Of a stretch of DNA of 64,000 nt, positions 32,341-39,510 are shown one piece after another. This DNA is from an uncultured Bacteroidota bacterium (GTDB taxonomy: Bacteria > Bacteroidota > Bacteroidia > B-17B0 > Aurantibacillaceae). The first letter of the stretch is position 1. The number at the start of each line of letters is the position of its first letter. The notes beneath the pieces are model-generated. The model worked only from the letters and a program-made list of their open reading frames with translations. It ran no database searches and was not told the DNA's origin. Both the position numbers and the translations under genes were made by a program. The DNA lies in contig CALMVZ010000010.1 in assembly GCA_937873155.1 (NCBI GenBank), forward strand, positions 434,001 to 498,000, given 5' to 3'.

Positions 32341-34911
32341 ATGAAGAAATTTTTAGTGCTGTTTTTCTCCCTGGTTATGCTGTCAGCGCAAGCGCAGTTA
32401 CCGACCGGTTCTTATAAAGATTATTTTAAGGAAGGCTCGTTCCTGATGCTGGAAGAAAATTATGACCTCGCATTACGTAACTTTTTGCGCGCGTACGAAA
32501 TGGATTCTTCAAACGCCAATATCAATTACAACGTTGGAGTGTGTTATTTAAAATCAGCTAACGAAAAAGCAAAAGCAGAAAATTTCCTTACCAAAGCAGT
32601 AGCAAAGATCGAGAAGAATTATAAAATGGATGACCCGAGCGAAAAAGCAGCTCCTCCATTAGCACATTTCTATTACGGACAAGCATTACACATCAATTAC
32701 CGTTTCGACGATGCGATAGCGCAATACGAAAAGTTCGCAACGTATATCGGAACCGATAAGGATTGGAAAAAAGATATCGAGTATTACAAAAAGCAAAGTG
32801 TGTTCGCGAAAGAAGTTGTCGCAGCGCCCATCAATGTTCAGATCTCGAATATGGGTGATAGTATCAACAGCGAGTATCCTGATTACAGCCCGGTATTAAG
32901 TTCAGATGAAAGAACAATGATCTATACAACCCGTCGTTCCTCAAGTACAGGTGGTGAAAAAACGCCTGATGGTGCTTTCTTCGAAGATATCGTTGTATCA
33001 TATAAAGATGATAAAGGAAAATGGTCAAAGCCTCATGCTTTAAGTCCGAATGTAAATACGAACGGACACGAAGCTTCAATTAACTTAAGTGCTGATGGGC
33101 AAACTTTGATCGTATTCCGTGATGACGGAGGGAACGGAAATATTTATTATTCAACCTGGGATGGAAAAACATGGACCTCTTTACAAGAGTTCGGTTCCGA
33201 CATCAACACAAAAGCATGGGAATCTCACGCTTGTTTAACTGCCGATGGTAACACGATCTATTTCGTATCTGACCGTCCGGGTGGATTTGGAGGCCGTGAC
33301 ATTTATCGTTGCGTGAAATTACCGAATGGAAAATGGAGTAAAGCCCTTAACGTTGGTCCGGTTATCAATACGGAGTATGATGAGGACGGAGCGTTCATGC
33401 ATCCTGATGGAAAAACATTCTTCTTCGCTTCAAAAGGTCATAAATCAATGGGAGGATTTGACTTAATGTTCTCTATCCTTGATGAAGACAATAAATTCAC
33501 AGAGCCGTTCAACTTATGGCACCCGATCAATACACCGGATGACGATGTGTTCTATTCAACATCACCTGACGGGAAACGCGCTTATTACTCTTCTGCAAAA
33601 GAAGGCGGACAAGGAGAGAAAGATATTTACATGATCTCCATTCCCGGACAAGTTGAGAAACCTCTCGCTTTATTCCGCGGACAAATTATCGCTGCTGAAG
33701 GTGAGACATTGCCTGAGGACATCATGATCACTGTAAGAGATAAAGCGAGCGGAGAGATCGTTGGTACTTATCGTCCGAAGATCGTGAACGGAACTTTCTC
33801 AACCATCTTACCTCCCGGCAAAGAGTATAACTTCTCTTACTCTTCCGATGGAAATGAGTTCTATAATGAAGATGTTTATGTAACAAACGACTTAAGCTAC
33901 CAGGAGATCCGCAAAGAGATCTCTTTGGAGCCGGTTAAATTATTAGGAAAAGTAAAAGTTAAAGACAAAGGTATTCTTGCAAGCTTAGTTGTATTGAACA
34001 ACTCTAAAGATAAAAAACCGGTTGCAGGCGCTAAGATCACCATCACTGATAAAAATGGTGCTGTTCAGACTTTTGAAGCTGACGATAAAGGAAAAAAAGA
34101 AGGAATTGTTTTAGTTGGTGAGGATAACTACACGATCGTTGCTGAATCTAACGGCAAGAAAAGTGCGGTATCAACCATCAGCACCAAAGGGATCTCCGGA
34201 AGCAAGAATATTACACAGTTATTATTTTTAGACGGAAAAAAATCAAGCCAGTACAGCTTAACGCTTGATGTAACTGTACTAAACAATGCTAAACAGAAAA
34301 AGCCTGTTGCTAATGCGAACATTGTCCTGATGGGTAACGATGGTAGTAAGTATGAGGGCACTACAAATGAAAAAGGTGTATTGAAAGGGATTGTTTTGGA
34401 TTCAGATGTTAGTTACGATCTATCTGCATCAACCGGAGATGTTTCTTCTGAAAAAACATATTTAACTACTAACAGCACTAAAGAAAATAAAGTTTACAAG
34501 AAAACATTATATGTTGAAGCAGGTGCGCCGTCAAAATTGCCTTCAACGAAATATGAATTCTACTTCAAGTATAACAAACACCGTGTGGATTCAGTTCAGG
34601 ATACATGGGTGGCATTTATCGACCGTTTAGTTGAGATCAGCAAGAAGAAAAGCATCAACATAAAGATCGAAGCAAGTGCATCAAAAGTACCTTGTATGAT
34701 TGTATTCAGGAACAATAACGAATTAGCCGCAGCGCGCGCTACAATAACAATGAACAAAATTAAAGAAGCAGTAGCAGCAAAAGGCGGAGATGTTTCCAAA
34801 TTAAAATTCAGCAAGTCTTCAAAAGTACAAGGCCCTGCATGGCATAATGATCACTTAGAACGCCGTGAGGAGTTTGAGAAGTATCAGTATGTTAAGGTAT
34901 CGGCTAATTAG
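32341..34911 (+). CDS. TPR-PD40-OmpA-like envelope protein
   Basis: 856 residues from ATG 32341. The signal peptide is MKKFLVLFFSLVMLSAQAQ. TPRs (about 25-150; YDLALRNFLRAYEMDSSNANINYNVGVCYL) precede PD40/WD40-like beta-propeller repeats (about 175-440; SEYPDYSPVLSSDERTMIYTTRR, SADGQTLIVFRDDG, YFVSDRPGGFGGRDIY, PDGKTFFFASKGH). Carboxypeptidase-regulatory-like beta domains follow (about 455-730). The C-terminal segment (about 745-856) resembles an OmpA domain but with a weakened peptidoglycan motif (NNELAAARA in place of N..LS..RA). This order matches PorE-like and related Bacteroidota proteins that tether envelope machinery to peptidoglycan. A link to T9SS is possible but not shown here. Confidence 0.75.
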   Translation: MKKFLVLFFSLVMLSAQAQLPTGSYKDYFKEGSFLMLEENYDLALRNFLRAYEMDSSNANINYNVGVCYLKSANEKAKAENFLTKAVAKIEKNYKMDDPSEKAAPPLAHFYYGQALHINYRFDDAIAQYEKFATYIGTDKDWKKDIEYYKKQSVFAKEVVAAPINVQISNMGDSINSEYPDYSPVLSSDERTMIYTTRRSSSTGGEKTPDGAFFEDIVVSYKDDKGKWSKPHALSPNVNTNGHEASINLSADGQTLIVFRDDGGNGNIYYSTWDGKTWTSLQEFGSDINTKAWESHACLTADGNTIYFVSDRPGGFGGRDIYRCVKLPNGKWSKALNVGPVINTEYDEDGAFMHPDGKTFFFASKGHKSMGGFDLMFSILDEDNKFTEPFNLWHPINTPDDDVFYSTSPDGKRAYYSSAKEGGQGEKDIYMISIPGQVEKPLALFRGQIIAAEGETLPEDIMITVRDKASGEIVGTYRPKIVNGTFSTILPPGKEYNFSYSSDGNEFYNEDVYVTNDLSYQEIRKEISLEPVKLLGKVKVKDKGILASLVVLNNSKDKKPVAGAKITITDKNGAVQTFEADDKGKKEGIVLVGEDNYTIVAESNGKKSAVSTISTKGISGSKNITQLLFLDGKKSSQYSLTLDVTVLNNAKQKKPVANANIVLMGNDGSKYEGTTNEKGVLKGIVLDSDVSYDLSASTGDVSSEKTYLTTNSTKENKVYKKTLYVEAGAPSKLPSTKYEFYFKYNKHRVDSVQDTWVAFIDRLVEISKKKSINIKIEASASKVPCMIVFRNNNELAAARATITMNKIKEAVAAKGGDVSKLKFSKSSKVQGPAWHNDHLERREEFEKYQYVKVSAN

Positions 34912-34921
34912 GATTTTTGGC

Positions 34922-34966
34922 GTGGCTTCGACAAGCTCTTCCGGTGGCTGAGCTTGTCGAAGCCAC
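34922..34966. repeat. REP-like palindromic element pair (one truncated)
   Basis: GTGGCTTCGACAAGCTC (34922-34938) is the perfect reverse complement of GAGCTTGTCGAAGCCAC (34950-34966). The right-hand unit is a complete hairpin: GTGGCT, loop GAGCTTGTCGA, AGCCAC (34944-34966). It lies immediately after the TPR-PD40 gene. Confidence 0.85.
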
Positions 34967-34988
34967 CGGGAGAGCTAATGTAAATATT

Positions 34989-35020
34989 AAACCCGTTGAT
35001 CGAAAGGTTAACGGGTTTTT
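34989..35020 (+). terminator. Rho-independent terminator after the TPR-PD40 gene
   Basis: AAACCCGTT (34989-34997) pairs with AACGGGTTT (35010-35018) across a 12-base loop, followed by a T tract. Confidence 0.75.
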
Positions 35021-35034
35021 GTCTTTTTTAATCA

Positions 35035-35123
35035 GTGCCTTCGACAAGCTCAGGCACCTCTTTATGCAATGAATCATTCCGGAGATTAAGTTATAAATCG
35101 GTGGCTGAGCTTGTCGAAGCCAC
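35035..35123. repeat. Inverted pair of REP-like palindromes upstream of the GIY-YIG gene
   Basis: Unit one (35035-35057) has stem GTGCCT/AGGCAC with loop TCGACAAGCTC. Unit two (35101-35123) has stem GTGGCT/AGCCAC with the loop in the opposite orientation, GAGCTTGTCGA, followed by the tail CACTTCCAT. The stems differ but each stays fully paired. The pair ends 71 bases before the nuclease start codon. Confidence 0.85.
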
Positions 35124-35194
35124 TTCCATTAGCTCTATCAAAAATGCTACAATCCGTAGCAACAATTCCTGGTTTTCAGATATAGCTTTGTGTT

Positions 35195-35542
35195 ATGGAA
35201 GGATACATGTATATACTCGAATGCTGTGATGGAAGTTATTACACTGGCAGCACAAATGATCTTGACCTTCGTCTTCAACAACATCAAAACGGCGAAGGGT
35301 CTAATCATACAAGAAAAAGATTGCCTGTGGAACTGGTTTATTATGAGAAATTCGATAGGATAGACGAAGCTTTTTACAGGGAAAAACAAGTTCAGGGATG
35401 GAGCAGGAAAAAGAAGGAGGCGTTGATAAACGGTTGTAATAACGATCTTCCATTGCTTTCTAAAAACCGTACAGAATATCCACTGGCATCCCGGTTTCAA
35501 GCAGTGCCTTCAACAAGCTCGGGCACCGGATCACTTACTTAA
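35195..35542 (+). CDS. Single-domain GIY-YIG nuclease (UPF0213/URI-like) flanked by palindromic repeats
   Basis: 115 residues; the GIY-YIG domain occupies about 1-85. The motifs are YMYILECCDGSYYTGST (the two Tyr elements of GIY-YIG), DLDLRLQQHQ (catalytic Arg) and AFYREKQVQGWSRKKKEALI (metal-binding Glu and the family's C-terminal signature). Such enzymes cut DNA with one metal ion. The domain ends near LPLLSKN. The remaining residues, AVPSTSSGTGSLT, are the translation of a palindromic repeat that supplies the stop region. Palindromes of the same family lie 71 bases upstream (35035-35123), at the 3' end (35504-35526) and in a 60-bp array downstream (35567-35770). No DNA-binding or transposase domain is fused. 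A role in moving or maintaining these repeats is my inference. Confidence 0.85.
   Translation: MEGYMYILECCDGSYYTGSTNDLDLRLQQHQNGEGSNHTRKRLPVELVYYEKFDRIDEAFYREKQVQGWSRKKKEALINGCNNDLPLLSKNRTEYPLASRFQAVPSTSSGTGSLT
35504..35526. repeat. REP-like palindrome forming the 3' end of the GIY-YIG gene
   Basis: The stem is GTGCCT/GGGCAC (one G-T wobble) and the loop TCAACAAGCTC. It encodes the VPSTSSGT tail of the nuclease in frame. Confidence 0.8.
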
Positions 35543-35566
35543 AAAAACAGATAAATTGAAACAGGA

Positions 35567-35770
35567 GGTGGTTGAGCTTGTCGAAACCACTGCTTCCAGA
35601 GCAGCCGAAGCCACTTCCATGAGTCCGGTGGTTGAGCTTGTCGAAACCACTGCTTCCAGAGCAGCCGAAACCACTTCCATGAATCCGGTGGTTAAGCTTG
35701 TCGAAACCTCTGCTTCCAGAGCAGCCGAAGCCACTTCCATGAGTCCGGTGGTTGAGCTTGTCGAAACCAT
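35567..35770. repeat. 60-bp tandem array of REP-like palindromes (three full copies plus a partial)
   Basis: Units start at 35567, 35627, 35687 and 35747 with an exact 60-base period. Each has a hairpin (stem GTGGTT/AACCAC, loop GAGCTTGTCGA), a second palindrome CTGCTTCCAGAGCAG, and the tail GAAGCCACTTCCATGAGTCC with few substitutions. The fourth copy stops after the first hairpin. Because 60 is a multiple of three, the array is open in several frames, but it does not look like a real gene. It fills the 304-base gap between the nuclease and the methyltransferase. Confidence 0.9.
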
Positions 35771-35834
35771 CCGGATAGAGAAGGAAAAATATCCACAAAA
35801 CGCCTCTCGAACCAATGAAGGCTATAGAATTTCT

Positions 35835-35842
35835 TAACTTTG
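35835..35842 (+). promoter_or_regulatory. -7 box abutting the methyltransferase start
   Basis: TAACTTTG matches TAnnTTTG and ends only four bases before the ATG at 35847, so the transcript would be nearly leaderless. No -33 element is clear. Confidence 0.4.
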
Positions 35843-35846
35843 AAAT

Positions 35847-36602
35847 ATGTCCGATAAGCTCTGGTTCAAAGATTGGTTCAACTCGCCTTATTATCACATT
35901 CTATACAAAAAACGTGATGATAAAGAAGCGCAATTCTTTATGGATGCGTTGGCAAAACATTTGCAATTGAACGCATCGCATAAGATCTGGGACCTCGCCT
36001 GTGGGAAAGGAAGACACTCCATTTATTTAAATTCAAAAAGACTCAACGTCATCGGCACCGATCTTTCGGAGAACAGTATTAAAGAAGCTTTAAAAAATTC
36101 CAACGACACATTAGAATTCTACACACACGACATGCGCACGCCGTTCCGGATAAATTATTTCACGCATGTATTTAATTTATTTACCAGCATTGGTTATTTC
36201 GAAGACGAGCGCGATAATTTAAAAGTATTTAAGAATGTGTTTCAATCATTGAAGCCGGGTGGTTTGTTCGTTGTGGACTTTTTTAATGTACTGGACGTAA
36301 AAGCCTGCATGATCCCGGATAATAAAATGATAGTAGAAGGTATCGAATTTCACATCTGCAAAAAGATCGAAAACAATAAGATCATTAAACGTATCGAATT
36401 CTCTGATAAAGGCAAAGACTATTTCTTCGAAGAGAAAGTCTCTCTCTTAAATAAATTCTCATTTGAAAGTATGGCTGCCGCTGCAGGTTTTAAATTAGAA
36501 AATGTATTTGGCGATTACCAATTGAATCCTTTCGATGAGAAAAAGTCCGACCGATTAATTTTAATGTTTCGCAAGGAGGCGTCCCTTTCGGGAAGAAAGT
36601 AA
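35847..36602 (+). CDS. Class I SAM-dependent methyltransferase
   Basis: 251 residues. The Rossmann methyltransferase motifs are motif I IWDLACGKGRHS (about residues 46-57), the acidic ribose-binding end of strand two VIGTDLS (about 69), the YTHDMR region, motif IV/post-I FNLFTSIGYF and LKPGGLFVVDFFNV. The protein uses S-adenosylmethionine. Its acceptor is not visible, though the type is common among small-molecule methylases. It is followed one base later by priA and is probably in its operon. Confidence 0.85.
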   Translation: MSDKLWFKDWFNSPYYHILYKKRDDKEAQFFMDALAKHLQLNASHKIWDLACGKGRHSIYLNSKRLNVIGTDLSENSIKEALKNSNDTLEFYTHDMRTPFRINYFTHVFNLFTSIGYFEDERDNLKVFKNVFQSLKPGGLFVVDFFNVLDVKACMIPDNKMIVEGIEFHICKKIENNKIIKRIEFSDKGKDYFFEEKVSLLNKFSFESMAAAAGFKLENVFGDYQLNPFDEKKSDRLILMFRKEASLSGRK

Positions 36603-36603
36603 A

Positions 36604-39312
36604 ATGGAGCGCACCACTTTATTTGTTGATGTCATAGTGCCTTTAGCTGTACCGCAAAAATACACCTATCGTGTGCCTGTGGAATTGAACGATGAAGTGG
36701 AAATAGGAAAACGCGTCCTTGTGCAATTCGGGAAATCAAAATTCTATTCGGCTATTGTTTCTAAAGTTCATGACAAAGCGCCGGTAGATTATGTGGCTAA
36801 ATATATCGATTCGGTGATCGATGAAAAACCAATCGTGTTAGAAAAACAACTCACGTTCTGGGATTGGATGGCGTATTACTATATGTGCGGTCCCGGTGAA
36901 GTGATGAATGCGGCTCTTCCATCAGCTCTAAAACTTAGTTCAGTCGCCAATATCCAATTGAACCCCGGTTTTAATTTCGAAGAGAGTGATCATTCTCAGT
37001 TTTCCGATAAAGAACATTTGATCATTGATGCGCTGCATCATAATGACACTCTGAGTTTCGAGGATGTAAGCAAGATCCTGAAAATAAGATCCATTCATAA
37101 AACAGTTAATGATCTGATCAAAAAAGGAGCGATAGAGGTTTATGAAGAAGTAAAAGATAAATACAAACCGAAATTAGTTTCGTTCGTAAAATTAGATCCC
37201 GGGTACAAAGACGAATCAAAATTGAAAGAGCTGTTGGATAAACTCGAGAAGAAAGCTTTCAAGCAAGCAGAGGCCCTGTTGTATTTTTTGCATATTGCAA
37301 AAACAACAGGAGATCCTGATAAGCGTCCTTCGGACGGTCAGGATGACAGCTCGCTCCAGAAGGGAAATCCGGATAACAAGAGCATTCCTGTAACCCCGGA
37401 CTTTAGTCCGGGGACAGACGACACTGCCCCCACCACCAAGCGGACCGGGCAAAGCGAAGGTCCGTGGATACAGAAGAACGAACTCTCTAAGAAATGCGAC
37501 GTCGCTGCGATAAATTCGCTTGTGAAGAAAGGCGTGTTCACCGAAGAAAAATTCGAGATCGGACGTTTGCAATTCTCTAATTCTAAAAAACAAAAGAAAA
37601 CACTCACCAAAGAACAAACCAAAGCATACGCAGAAATTAAAAAGTCTTTCGAAAAACATTCTGTCAATTTATTGCATGGCGTAACCGGTTCCGGGAAAAC
37701 AGAATTGTATGCGAAATTAATTGAAGAAACTATCGGTAACGGACAACAGGTTCTTTTCCTATTACCCGAGATCGCTTTAACTACACAGCTCATCACTCGT
37801 ATGCGTACTTATTTTGGTGATAAAGTAGGGGTGTACCATTCCAAATTCAGTGAGAACGAGCGGGTGGAGATCTGGAACAATGTTCTGAACAACACCGGAG
37901 AAAATACTTACAGTGTTGTAATGGGTGCCCGTTCCGCTTTGTTTTTGCCATACGCGAATTTGGGTTTAATTATTATTGACGAAGAGCATGATTACTCTTA
38001 CAAGCAGCACGATCCTGCACCGCGCTACCACGCAAGAGATGCTGCTATTTATTTATCGACGTTGCACAATGCAAAAGTATTATTAGGCTCCGCAACTCCA
38101 TCACTCGAAACCTACAATAACGCGGCAACAGGTAAATATGGTTTAATTGAATTGAACAAACGCTTCACCGATGGCGCAGCCAACGAAATGGTGATCTGTG
38201 ATATTAAACAATCCGAACATTCGGTGCCTTCGACAAGCTCAGGCACCGCCTCCTTCGATTCAGCGGCTGATAAAAAGAACCAGGTGCCTGAACTCGTCGA
38301 AGGCACTTCCATGAGGCACAAATCGATCCTGACTCACCCATTACACGAAGCCATTAAAACCGCTCTAAAGAACAAAGAACAAATTATCCTATTTCAGAAC
38401 CGCCGGGGCTTTGCGCCTTATACGGAATGTGCTTCCTGTGGTTGGATCCCCCATTGCAGGCAATGTGATGTGTCTTTGATTTTTCATAAACATTCCAATA
38501 AATTAACCTGTCACTATTGCGGTTATACCATTTCTCCGCCGAGTGCCTGTGCAGCTTGCGGACATAATGATCTTCGTTACAAAGGCATGGGCACTGAGAA
38601 GATAGAAGAAGAGATTGAGATCTTATTTCCCGAAGCAAAGATCGCGCGCATGGATCTGGATACCACCCGCAGCAAATACGCCTACAAACAAATTATTGAT
38701 GATTTTGAAGAACAGAACATTGATATATTGATTGGTACGCAAATGGTAACAAAAGGACTCGACTTCGATCATGTGAGTGTGGTGGGAATTTTAAACGCAG
38801 ATTCATTATTCTCCTTTCCTGATTTCCGCTCGCACGAGAGAGGTTACCAGTTAATAACACAGGTAAGCGGAAGGGCAGGGCGTAAACACAAACAGGGAAA
38901 AGTATTCATCCAAACTTTGCAACCACAGCATCCGGTGATCCAGTATGTGATCCGGGATGATCTGAAATTATTTTACAATAACCAGTTACTCGAGCGTAAG
39001 CAATACCATTACCCGCCATACTCGCGCCTCATCCAGTTAAGTGTAGTAGCCAAAGATGTGAACCTCGTAAACAACATGAGCGAAGAACTCGCCAAACGTT
39101 TAAAAGGCACCTTCGGCAAAGATCTCCTCGGCCCTCAATTCCCCTTAGTAAGCAAAATAAAGAACAACTACTACAAACGCATCATTTTAAAAATAGATAA
39201 ATCTTTAGGTCCGCAGAATGTCCGCCATATTTTGAATTCGGAAATCAATAACTTACATCAAAGCTTTAGGGAAGAAAATTTTAGAATACAAATAGATGTC
39301 GATCCCTACTAG
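36604..39312 (+). CDS. priA: PriA: primosomal replication restart helicase, with two in-frame repeat insertions
   Basis: 902 residues; I judge about 820 to be usual in this phylum. The N-terminal 3'-DNA-binding domain (1-105) and winged helix are followed by Walker A GVTGSGKTE (about 358), Walker B DEEH (about 458), GSATPSLETY, an eight-Cys zinc module (CASCGW, CRQC, CHYCGY, CAACG; about 608-660) and helicase motifs GTQMVTKGLDFD and QVSGRAGR. PriA reloads DnaB at stalled forks. Two segments look foreign: about residues 239-290 (37320-37470), holding several palindromes, and about 540-568 (38224-38306), an inverted pair of the REP-like element read as VPSTSSGT and VPELVEGT. Both keep the frame, so the protein is probably functional. 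A diverged second copy of its last codons follows the stop. Confidence 0.93.
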   Translation: MERTTLFVDVIVPLAVPQKYTYRVPVELNDEVEIGKRVLVQFGKSKFYSAIVSKVHDKAPVDYVAKYIDSVIDEKPIVLEKQLTFWDWMAYYYMCGPGEVMNAALPSALKLSSVANIQLNPGFNFEESDHSQFSDKEHLIIDALHHNDTLSFEDVSKILKIRSIHKTVNDLIKKGAIEVYEEVKDKYKPKLVSFVKLDPGYKDESKLKELLDKLEKKAFKQAEALLYFLHIAKTTGDPDKRPSDGQDDSSLQKGNPDNKSIPVTPDFSPGTDDTAPTTKRTGQSEGPWIQKNELSKKCDVAAINSLVKKGVFTEEKFEIGRLQFSNSKKQKKTLTKEQTKAYAEIKKSFEKHSVNLLHGVTGSGKTELYAKLIEETIGNGQQVLFLLPEIALTTQLITRMRTYFGDKVGVYHSKFSENERVEIWNNVLNNTGENTYSVVMGARSALFLPYANLGLIIIDEEHDYSYKQHDPAPRYHARDAAIYLSTLHNAKVLLGSATPSLETYNNAATGKYGLIELNKRFTDGAANEMVICDIKQSEHSVPSTSSGTASFDSAADKKNQVPELVEGTSMRHKSILTHPLHEAIKTALKNKEQIILFQNRRGFAPYTECASCGWIPHCRQCDVSLIFHKHSNKLTCHYCGYTISPPSACAACGHNDLRYKGMGTEKIEEEIEILFPEAKIARMDLDTTRSKYAYKQIIDDFEEQNIDILIGTQMVTKGLDFDHVSVVGILNADSLFSFPDFRSHERGYQLITQVSGRAGRKHKQGKVFIQTLQPQHPVIQYVIRDDLKLFYNNQLLERKQYHYPPYSRLIQLSVVAKDVNLVNNMSEELAKRLKGTFGKDLLGPQFPLVSKIKNNYYKRIILKIDKSLGPQNVRHILNSEINNLHQSFREENFRIQIDVDPY
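37320..37470. repeat. Palindrome cluster inserted in frame in priA
   Basis: The palindrome CCCCGGACTTTAGTCCGGGG (37394-37413) is the same family as those at 51150 and 51247. Nearby are GTCCTTCGGAC (from about 37325) and CGGACC/GGTCCG (37441-37464). The encoded stretch is low-complexity (PSDGQDDSSLQKGNPDNK ...) and interrupts the winged-helix region of PriA between AKTTG and KNELSKK. Confidence 0.7.
38224..38306. repeat. Inverted REP-like pair inserted in frame in priA
   Basis: Unit one (38224-38246) has stem GTGCCT/AGGCAC with loop TCGACAAGCTC. Unit two (38284-38306) has the same stem with the reversed loop GAACTCGTCGA, followed by CACTTCCATGAG. The layout matches the pair at 35035-35123. 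It lies in the linker before the PriA zinc module. Confidence 0.85.
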
Positions 39313-39316
39313 CGCC

Positions 39317-39340
39317 GTCATCCTGAGCTTGCTGAAGGGC
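39317..39340. repeat. TCCTGAGCTTGCTGAAGG-type repeat between priA and its vestigial 3' copy
   Basis: GTCATCCTGAGCTTGCTGAA followed by GGGC starts a few bases after the priA stop. Its core resembles the CCTGAGCTTGTCGAAGG form of the REP-like family, but the stem is not complete. Confidence 0.5.
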
Positions 39341-39345
39341 TGAAC

Positions 39346-39393
39346 TACAGAGACGAAACCTTCAAAGTACAAATAGACGTAGCCCATTATTAA
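39346..39393 (+). pseudogene. Vestigial duplicate of the priA 3' end
   Basis: Codons at 39346-39393 read YRDETFKVQIDVAHY and then TAA. The true end of PriA reads FREENFRIQIDVDPY and then TAG. Nine of 15 residues are identical and most others are conservative, and both are followed by a stop. The two copies are separated by a repeat element (39317-39340). The second copy has no upstream coding frame. Confidence 0.7.
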
Positions 39394-39405
39394 TACACGA
39401 ATGTT

Positions 39406-39442
39406 CTCCCCCTTTTTTCAAGGGGGAGTACGGCTTTAGCCG
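39406..39442. repeat. Intergenic palindromes CTCCCCCTT/AAGGGGGAG and CGGCTTTAGCCG
   Basis: A perfect 9-bp inverted repeat (39406-39414 with 39420-39428) is followed at once by the palindrome CGGCTTTAGCCG (39431-39442). Both are common intergenic types in this phylum as I know them. Confidence 0.65.
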
Positions 39443-39510
39443 GGAGGGGGTTGATGAATTGAAGAAGAAAGCTTATACAAAAACGAGAAGGAGTCTTTTG
39501 ATCGAAAAAT

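Follow-up and report, generated by a model that had tools for sequence, protein, structure and literature searches.

Stand-alone GIY-YIG nuclease genes recurrently flanked by tagged hairpin elements: a candidate REP-like mobile system

The stretch of DNA that was analysed (64,000 nucleotides from an uncultured Bacteroidota bacterium; hereafter the window) carries a lone UPF0213-type GIY-YIG nuclease gene on the plus strand at 35195-35542. The gene encodes 115 residues, with residues 3-74 making up the catalytic domain. Eight whole elements and one half element, all of one hairpin family, surround it, and a further pair lies within priA. Upstream, a half element (34922-34938, +) and a whole element (34942-34966, -) provide perfect inverted arms of 17 bases. 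They are followed by the hairpin GTGCC-TTCGACAAGCTCA-GGCAC-C (35035-35059, +) and by an inverted counterpart (35099-35123, -), which is the nearest element on the left of the gene and has its tag side facing away from it. Another hairpin, with two core mismatches, forms the 3′ end of the nuclease gene (35504-35528, +); genome G054 has the same element at the same place. Downstream, four elements are arrayed in tandem, all on the minus strand (35566-35590, 35626-35650, 35686-35710 and 35746-35770), the last two with four of five stem positions paired. The pair in priA (38224-38248, +; 38282-38306, -, the minus copy with two core mismatches) is an in-frame insert. A sequence-only reading had already described the lone nuclease gene, the inverted hairpin pair upstream (35035-35123), the element at the 3′ end of the gene and the copies at 34922-34966 and in priA, and each of these was found again here. 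Its "60-bp array" downstream exists too, but 60 bp is the period of the array and the total length is about 200 bp. In general, the elements of the window consist of a 5-base stem, the core with at most two changes, the second arm, then C and usually G. No Rfam family reached its gathering score in 34000-39500. As side observations, the C-terminal tail of the nuclease, VPSTSSGTG, is a read-through of the hairpin element (35504-35542), and the pair at 38224-38306 adds about 30 residues in frame to PriA.

The enzyme was then characterized from its sequence and predicted fold. Pfam assigned a GIY-YIG domain (E 2.3e-18) and no further domain. The AF2 model had a mean pLDDT of 92.4, and its first fold neighbours in Foldseek were the UPF0213 structures 1zg2 and 1ywl, followed by Slx1, whose structure title refers to the processing of branched DNA. 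The match to 1zg2 had E values of 3.8e-17 with phmmer and 2e-7 with Foldseek. Thus, the window nuclease, with its single GIY-YIG domain of about 90 residues, is BH0048-like and resembles the UPF0213 proteins (Bacillus BH0048, Enterococcus EF2693; YazA) in both sequence and fold. By Pfam and by fold, what the hairpins flank is a GIY-YIG gene and not an HUH/Y1 transposase gene. Residues Y6, Y15, Y16, G18, R26 and E63 are among those invariant across 24 homologues; they are of the type that serves catalysis in GIY-YIG enzymes.

Within the window, 16 matches to the 12-bp core were found with up to two mismatches, as compared to a mean of 4.81 and a maximum of 11 in 100 shuffles. The 12-base core occurs 45 times without mismatch in the genome of the window, G000 (4.85 Mb, 39 contigs), and the reversed pattern not at all. 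Eight of the 45 fall in the 3.3 kb from the nuclease gene to priA (C10:468927-472240), and two flank a truncated copy of the nuclease on contig C32. At least four of five stem positions are paired in 30 of the 44 distinct core contexts, so that about one third of the contexts are single decayed or unpaired cores. Isolated pairs have their tags inward, opposite to the arrangement of the gene unit. The truncated copy (C32:7328-7575, L043) is 79% identical to the window nuclease over residues 30-91; it is without the first 29 residues, and a hairpin element sits at the break. The gene ahead of it is presumably rpmH-like, a name given by reading. There are 14 PF01541 matches in this genome. The GIY-YIG gene at C10:223684 has a sister hairpin with core TTCGTCAGGCTC on both flanks, and that at C13:25829 is flanked by the palindromes ATGCTGACCTAAGTCAGCAT and ATGCTGACTTAGGTCAGCAT. 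These genes with flanking hairpins of their own suggest a wider rule.

Separately, another kind of lone GIY-YIG gene adjoins tRNA genes (Ser, Met, Leu, Arg) in G000 (C12:152832, C13:232156, C13:232512, C6:29418 and C10:380337; L004, L007, L008, L044 and L045). On their opposite side these genes carry an apparent partial copy of the same tRNA, and they look as if inserted in tRNA genes while restoring them. The Met-tRNA case is a tandem duplicate.

The adjacency of nuclease and hairpins was examined in homologous loci. Thirty nuclease loci were taken from 87 genomes of the family. TTCGNCANGCTC was present within 1.5 kb of the nuclease in 12 of the 30, and several others had sister cores on both sides; these first scans kept genes of the minus strand in their original orientation, so that positions are mirrored but nothing else changes. 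For named genomes, the best 80 of 560 confirmed nuclease loci were scanned. By record title these 80 belong to Bacteroidota, Ignavibacteria, Cloacimonadota, Calditrichia, Gammaproteobacteria, Sulfurovum, Termititenax, Anaerolineales, Leptospiraceae and cyanobacteria. A motif-free test, searching for a 15-mer common to the 400 bases left and the 400 bases right of the gene, detected such a string at 45 of 76 nuclease loci (four of the 80 were dropped for short flanks), as compared to 7 of 481 other ORFs of the same contigs, as called by a simple ORF finder, and to 19 among 1161 windows placed at random. This test is independent of the class I-III patterns used below, which were written after the sequences were seen. 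Among the same best 80 loci, the pattern TTCG[AG]...CTCA with a stem gave 192 matches within 250 bp of the genes (4.88/kb), against 0.014-0.054/kb beyond 2 kb and none in reversed sequence. Within 600 bp, stem-pattern elements were found on both sides at 41 of 75 loci, five of the 80 being dropped for short flanks, on one side at 22 and on neither at 12. The tag was mostly turned outward, the nearest left element being on the minus strand in a ratio of 39:17 and the nearest right element on the plus strand in a ratio of 45:17. One locus, L147, had no class-I element within 600 bp though its genome has 159. Overall, the data show that the link between nuclease and hairpins is solid and that it is two-sided.

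Hot intergenic spots, assembly errors or chance might produce such neighbourhoods, and the loci do come mostly from draft genomes or MAGs. Against this, the same-contig controls did not reproduce the sharing of flanks, reversed-pattern counts were zero or few, none of 20000 permutations equalled the match between gene-side and dispersed cores described below, and hairpins were also seen in plasmid-collection records, most of which are titled complete. We therefore consider an artefact to be a negligible prospect.

The structure of the element was derived from 309 distinct near-gene elements, collected with no stem required. Watson-Crick pairing at stem positions 1 to 5 amounted to 92, 90, 86, 76 and 56%, with several pair types at each position, as compared to 31-54% for 122 cores located more than 2 kb from the genes. 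Of the elements that combined an outer stem with a core of 13 bases (118 in all), 54 had G-C as their innermost pair, 50 C-G, 11 T-A and 3 another. The stem thus shows compensatory changes and, from the pairing pattern and the innermost-pair types, the TTCGA/CTCA step is an internal mismatch flanked by two pairs of variable sequence. A conserved mismatch also occurs in E. coli REPs and is required by their RAYT, according to the accessible part of PMC8266576. Position +6 is C in 274 of the 309 elements and position +7 is G in 188, so the tag is not GTAG; read on the other strand, these bases give a CGG tag. The predicted single-strand energy of three class I elements ranged from -4.8 to -5.2 kcal/mol (z -1.6 to -2.2). 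An Azospirillum element reached -9.7 kcal/mol (z -4.05), and the one Bacteroidota class III element tested, at -3.7 kcal/mol (z -0.33), was no better than shuffles.

In order to relate nucleases to element classes, loci were assigned to groups 1-3, named by the query that found them and then checked on the protein tree, and identical proteins were counted once. L062 and L076 were left out because they lie at contig ends, and L073 was not included. Group 1 had a tree support of 96, group 2 of 68 and group 3 of 99, with few alignment columns and many open forks. In group 1, to which the window nuclease belongs, the class-I core followed by CG was found in 68 of 92 loci (221 elements), the GTCA-tagged core in a single locus (one element), and classes II and III in none of the 92; 157 of the 379 class-I elements had neither CG nor GTCA at the place of the tag. 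In group 2, the CG-tagged core was found in none of the 12 loci and the same core with GTCA in five (25 elements), with class II in two loci and class III in one. Of the 29 loci of group 3, 19 had class III hairpins (CGTCATTGCGAG..GAAGCAATC), one had class II and one the CG-tagged core. Within 600 bp, 12 of the 92 loci of group 1, 5 of the 12 of group 2 and 10 of the 29 of group 3 showed no class pattern. Mapped on the protein tree (94 labelled loci of 135 rows), the tag class changed once, as compared to a mean of 22.3 and a minimum of 18 after shuffling. The type of core on the group-1 tree required 19 changes, against a shuffled mean of 29.9 and a minimum of 25, and its congruence is therefore only partial. 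Nuclease subfamily and element class are thus co-specialised.

Class III resembles a known family of repeats. CGTC-tagged palindromes occur in many bacteria and include Neisseria dRS3 and Rickettsia RPE-4 and RPE-6, and Di Nocera et al. 2013 state that these REPs "apparently lack a dedicated transposase" (both from the accessible part of PMC3733652). Within the main text of that paper, as far as it was accessible, no word starts with GIY, and the accessible text of a 2025 REP survey citing it (PMC12306157) has no word starting with transposase or nuclease. A Moraxella gene table enters RayT and a GIY-YIG gene separately (PMC9465073, in the part at hand). Among the matches listed in our search of open-access literature, no paper coupling GIY-YIG to these repeats was found. 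We selected 20 plasmid-collection nuclease loci, mostly from Proteobacteria, out of 47 rows; the skipped rows were mostly near-identical strains or the same genus, with exceptions such as H34, H35, H37, H38 and H47. CGTC- or TGTC-tagged hairpins were detected by pattern at 11 of the 20 loci, and a tagged or equivalent palindrome was recognised at five more by reading shared strings. None was found at the remaining four, in Spirosoma, Rhizobium K1/93, B. subtilis and Radiobacillus. At the Photobacterium locus, tagged hairpins lay on one side only, over a high background. In total, 36 tagged hairpins were counted in 18 kb near the nucleases and 23 in 95.2 kb far from them, 13 of the latter in Photobacterium. 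Tags pointed outward in seven of the nine CGTC loci scored on both sides.

Group-3 and proteobacterial elements have the features of CGTC-tagged REPs, namely a CGTC, TGTC or CCTC tag at one end, dispersal and frequent dimers. The published account, as far as it was available, describes a tag, an AT where the stem starts and a dimer arrangement; class III agrees with it on all three, as do the CGTCATCC/CGTCATTCC hairpins of Proteobacteria. Unlike the published repeats, they flank GIY-YIG genes, and the reported lack of a dedicated enzyme gene is not upheld at these loci. The elements of the window's own class carry CGG instead of the CGTC tag. A separate element class goes with each of at least three nuclease subfamilies, and known CGTC-tagged REPs belong to the wider set. 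The suggestion from sequence alone that the gene and its palindromes form a REP-like system with a different nuclease is thus borne out in part, as regards recurrent association and co-specialisation; a restriction to this gene or to Bacteroidota does not hold.

We then asked whether the hairpins could be ordinary RAYT-mobilised REPs with the GIY-YIG gene as a passenger. The genome of the window does contain four Y1_Tnp (RAYT-type) genes, and one RAYT locus of the family, L231, has class I elements. However, none of the four own RAYT loci carries the hairpin core, and one of these genes, L040, has a different palindrome of its own. Among the 31 of 33 RAYT loci of the family with long enough flanks, L231 was the only one with class I elements within 600 bp; class II and III elements were found at none, and a 15-mer was common to both flanks at six. 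In addition, six element-bearing genomes (G016, G030, 81% complete, G060, G069, 76% complete, G074 and G078) gave no Y1_Tnp match. A RAYT origin was therefore rejected and is, in our view, highly improbable; the hairpins are not explained by RAYTs, a possibility that the sequence-only reading had named as fatal to its proposal.

The anatomy is nevertheless similar to that of RAYT/TnpA-REP systems (REPtron, REPIN). In both, tagged imperfect hairpins lie on either side of a small enzyme gene and are scattered as single copies and as inverted pairs, one enzyme type goes with one hairpin type, and the hairpin has a conserved mismatch; the RAYT side of this likeness is taken from the accessible parts of PMC8266576, PMC3116915 and PMC6006769. 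In contrast, the enzyme here is GIY-YIG and not HUH/Y1, and the tags are CGG, GTCA or CGTC and not GTAG. Since neither the HUH enzyme nor the GTAG tag was found, the system stands outside RAYT membership. By analogy, it is best read as resembling a RAYT REPtron in which GIY-YIG would replace HUH.

The elements that flank the enzyme gene are also dispersed through the genome. Across the 87 family genomes, the total of three cores had a median of 14 in the 67 genomes with a nuclease match and of 0.5 in the 20 without (Mann-Whitney p 1.7e-6, kinship uncorrected). At completeness of at least 90, the medians were 14.5 and 1.0 (p 1.2e-4, kinship again uncorrected). In 14 of 20 genomes, the gene-side core was also the one of the three with most copies away from the gene, a number attained in none of 20000 permutations; 10 of the 30 loci had none of the three cores and did not enter this test. 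Another core outnumbered the gene-side core in the other six. G067 has 76 copies of its core TTCGAGAGCCTCA away from the gene, and G065 has 79 copies of TTCGACAAGCTCA elsewhere and none of the other two cores. In G009, all three copies of the gene-side core are at the gene and another core is dispersed in 46 copies. In the 19 named genomes counted, TTCGACN{2,3}GCTCA and its reversed pattern gave, for example, 97 and 6 matches (L131), 102 and 2 (L134), 159 and 2 (L147), 14 and 6 (L162), 7 and 1 (L156), and 1 and 0 (L115). Some element-rich genomes had no group-1 or group-3 query match: G029 (32 cores, 99% complete), G001 (17, 78%), and G005 and G019 (10 each, 99%). Within the genus, G055 has 34 cores without a close gene, as compared to 43 and 55 in two genomes with the gene and 3-13 in five others. 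The expectation that element number follows gene presence thus has a mixed outcome, though mostly a favourable one.

Presence and absence of the units was compared between relatives. A methyltransferase match was obtained in seven of the eight genus genomes searched, and in all seven this gene stands between an OmpA-family gene and priA, in the same order; nuclease plus hairpins separate it from the OmpA-family gene in two of the seven, G000 and G054 only. The hairpin pair in priA is present in G000, G054 and G055 and absent from G052, G053, G056 and G058. G052 has a group-2 nuclease and four elements after a gene that we take, by reading, to be radC-like; G053 is without 613 bp there and keeps 29 others, with flanks 98% identical. 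In Azospirillum lipoferum 4B, the order is sufB, CGTC pair, nuclease, CGTC pair, sufC, and the sufB/sufC site is without a nuclease in the four other Azospirillum read (A. oryzae, A. ramasamyi, strain B510 and A. brasilense). Shinella H4-D48 is without the gene and hairpins that are present in strain WSC3-e. In S. meliloti Ak57, a full nuclease copy stands beside a copy with most of the gene missing between the hairpins, as would be expected if non-autonomous elements arise by internal deletion. Aquimarina nucleases that are 79-91% identical (ungapped) lie in unrelated neighbourhoods, with 0-1 shared ORFs in six pairs; a conserved place was observed for Winogradskyella L128/L148, with 11 shared ORFs of 15, and for Lutibacter L114/L155, with 8 of 13. 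Overall, relatives differ in their units of gene and elements, one having them where others do not.

Two further differences were noted. In G055 (L175), the OmpA-family gene and the methyltransferase enclose a pair of a different hairpin class (TGTCAGTTCGAACGTAGTCGAGAAC...) at the site that the nuclease unit occupies in G000 and G054. The group-3 loci L181 (G052:C81) and L182 (G053:C2) differ by about 105 bases of element and spacer; as these lie between direct repeats, deletion or duplication is possible.

Insertions are visible at the compared sites, yet the neighbouring intergenic or junction bases differ. No clean target site, duplication or excision was seen at the five places considered (OmpA-methyltransferase and priA; G052/G053; the group-3 element indel; Azospirillum, Sinorhizobium and Shinella), and because the junctions are not clean, no target duplication can be claimed.

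These comparisons bear on the main rival explanation, in which a selfish nuclease gene cuts and inserts at pre-existing hairpins that were spread otherwise, the repeats on its sides being homology arms. S. meliloti K101, with flanks 95.7% identical, has hairpins only where Ak57 has gene copies, as this explanation would predict. At 37 of 47 flank-test loci, the longest string that the left and right flanks have in common is repeated in direct orientation, some genomes have elements without the gene, and known REPs are reported to serve as targets for some insertion sequences (PMC1525189). Like GIY-YIG homing endonucleases, the nuclease belongs to this superfamily and has a selfish-looking pattern of presence and absence; unlike them, it has no extra DNA-binding domain by Pfam and has dispersed hairpins on its flanks, and no intron or intein was seen at the window locus. 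Insertion into hairpins fits poorly with the flanking hairpins, which on reading are whole and not split, and with the empty sites of A. oryzae, A. ramasamyi, Shinella H4-D48, G052, G053, G056 and G058, where no matching hairpin was recognised by reading. It also leaves aside that element number and core type track the gene. In G009, where the gene-side core is found only at the gene, the gene seems to have brought its elements. We regard homing into pre-existing hairpins as unlikely, though it deserves serious attention.

A second rival assigns the nuclease to the host: a UPF0213/Slx1-like enzyme would resolve cruciforms or hairpins formed by the repeats, and would be kept together with them as protection from nearby hairpins. 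The fold relation to Slx1 is consistent with this. So are the B. subtilis and Radiobacillus loci, two Bacillota loci with yazA-type genes in the same operon order and without such hairpins, which indicate that a housekeeping role may exist in the family. The window nuclease differs from these two loci in this respect; the solved UPF0213 members are titled hypothetical. Host repair, however, does not account for the closeness of the gene to hairpins (within 250 bp), for the subfamily-specific tag beside an identical hairpin core, or for the joint coming and going of gene and elements. We judge it improbable.

We rather favour the explanation that the nuclease is the cognate enzyme of the hairpins and probably their mobiliser; spreading of the hairpins by this enzyme best explains the data, and we hold it to be somewhat probable. 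The GIY-YIG nuclease is a good candidate because the same kind of hairpin flanks the gene and scatters through the genome in many unrelated bacteria. Stand-alone nuclease and short tagged hairpins would then make up one mobile system. Its unit would be tag-hairpin, gene, hairpin-tag, with the tag mostly outward and the gene and hairpins coming and going together. Scattered hairpins and hairpin pairs would be non-autonomous derivatives recognised by the same nuclease, each subfamily having its own tag and hairpin class. The enzyme most likely recognises the folded hairpin, with its outer stem, unpaired TTCGA/CTCA step and inner base pair, together with the tag. It may nick beside the hairpin, as RAYT does at GTAG hairpins, using a GIY-YIG active site for which Slx1, a branched-DNA nuclease, would be the best-studied structural neighbour. 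New places could then receive copies of hairpin pairs, and at times of the gene as well, by repair or strand exchange. Recognition of the hairpin, its cutting, and cutting as the driver of spread are all inferred.

A broader proposal, which to us is as easily wrong as right, is that these units represent a class of bacterial transposable elements in which a single-domain GIY-YIG transposase acts on tagged hairpins. This enzyme would be the one so far missing for the superfamily of CGTC-tagged REPs and for the sister groups with CGG and GTCA tags in many phyla, and would give REPs a second, chemically different origin besides RAYT. The known kind consists of tagged hairpins with a cognate enzyme gene; proof of the mechanism would make the present system a class of its own. 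If so, there would have been two or more separate origins of REP-like systems, by unrelated chemistries, and the large family that annotation knows only as "GIY-YIG nuclease family protein" would gain a role. The finding names a concrete enzyme of 90 residues, with a substrate predicted down to the tag and the mismatch. Finally, on the Planktothrix agardhii plasmid p1 (L248), a nuclease gene with CTGTCATTCTGAG palindromes on both sides was observed between an MmeI-type restriction enzyme and DISARM drmA.
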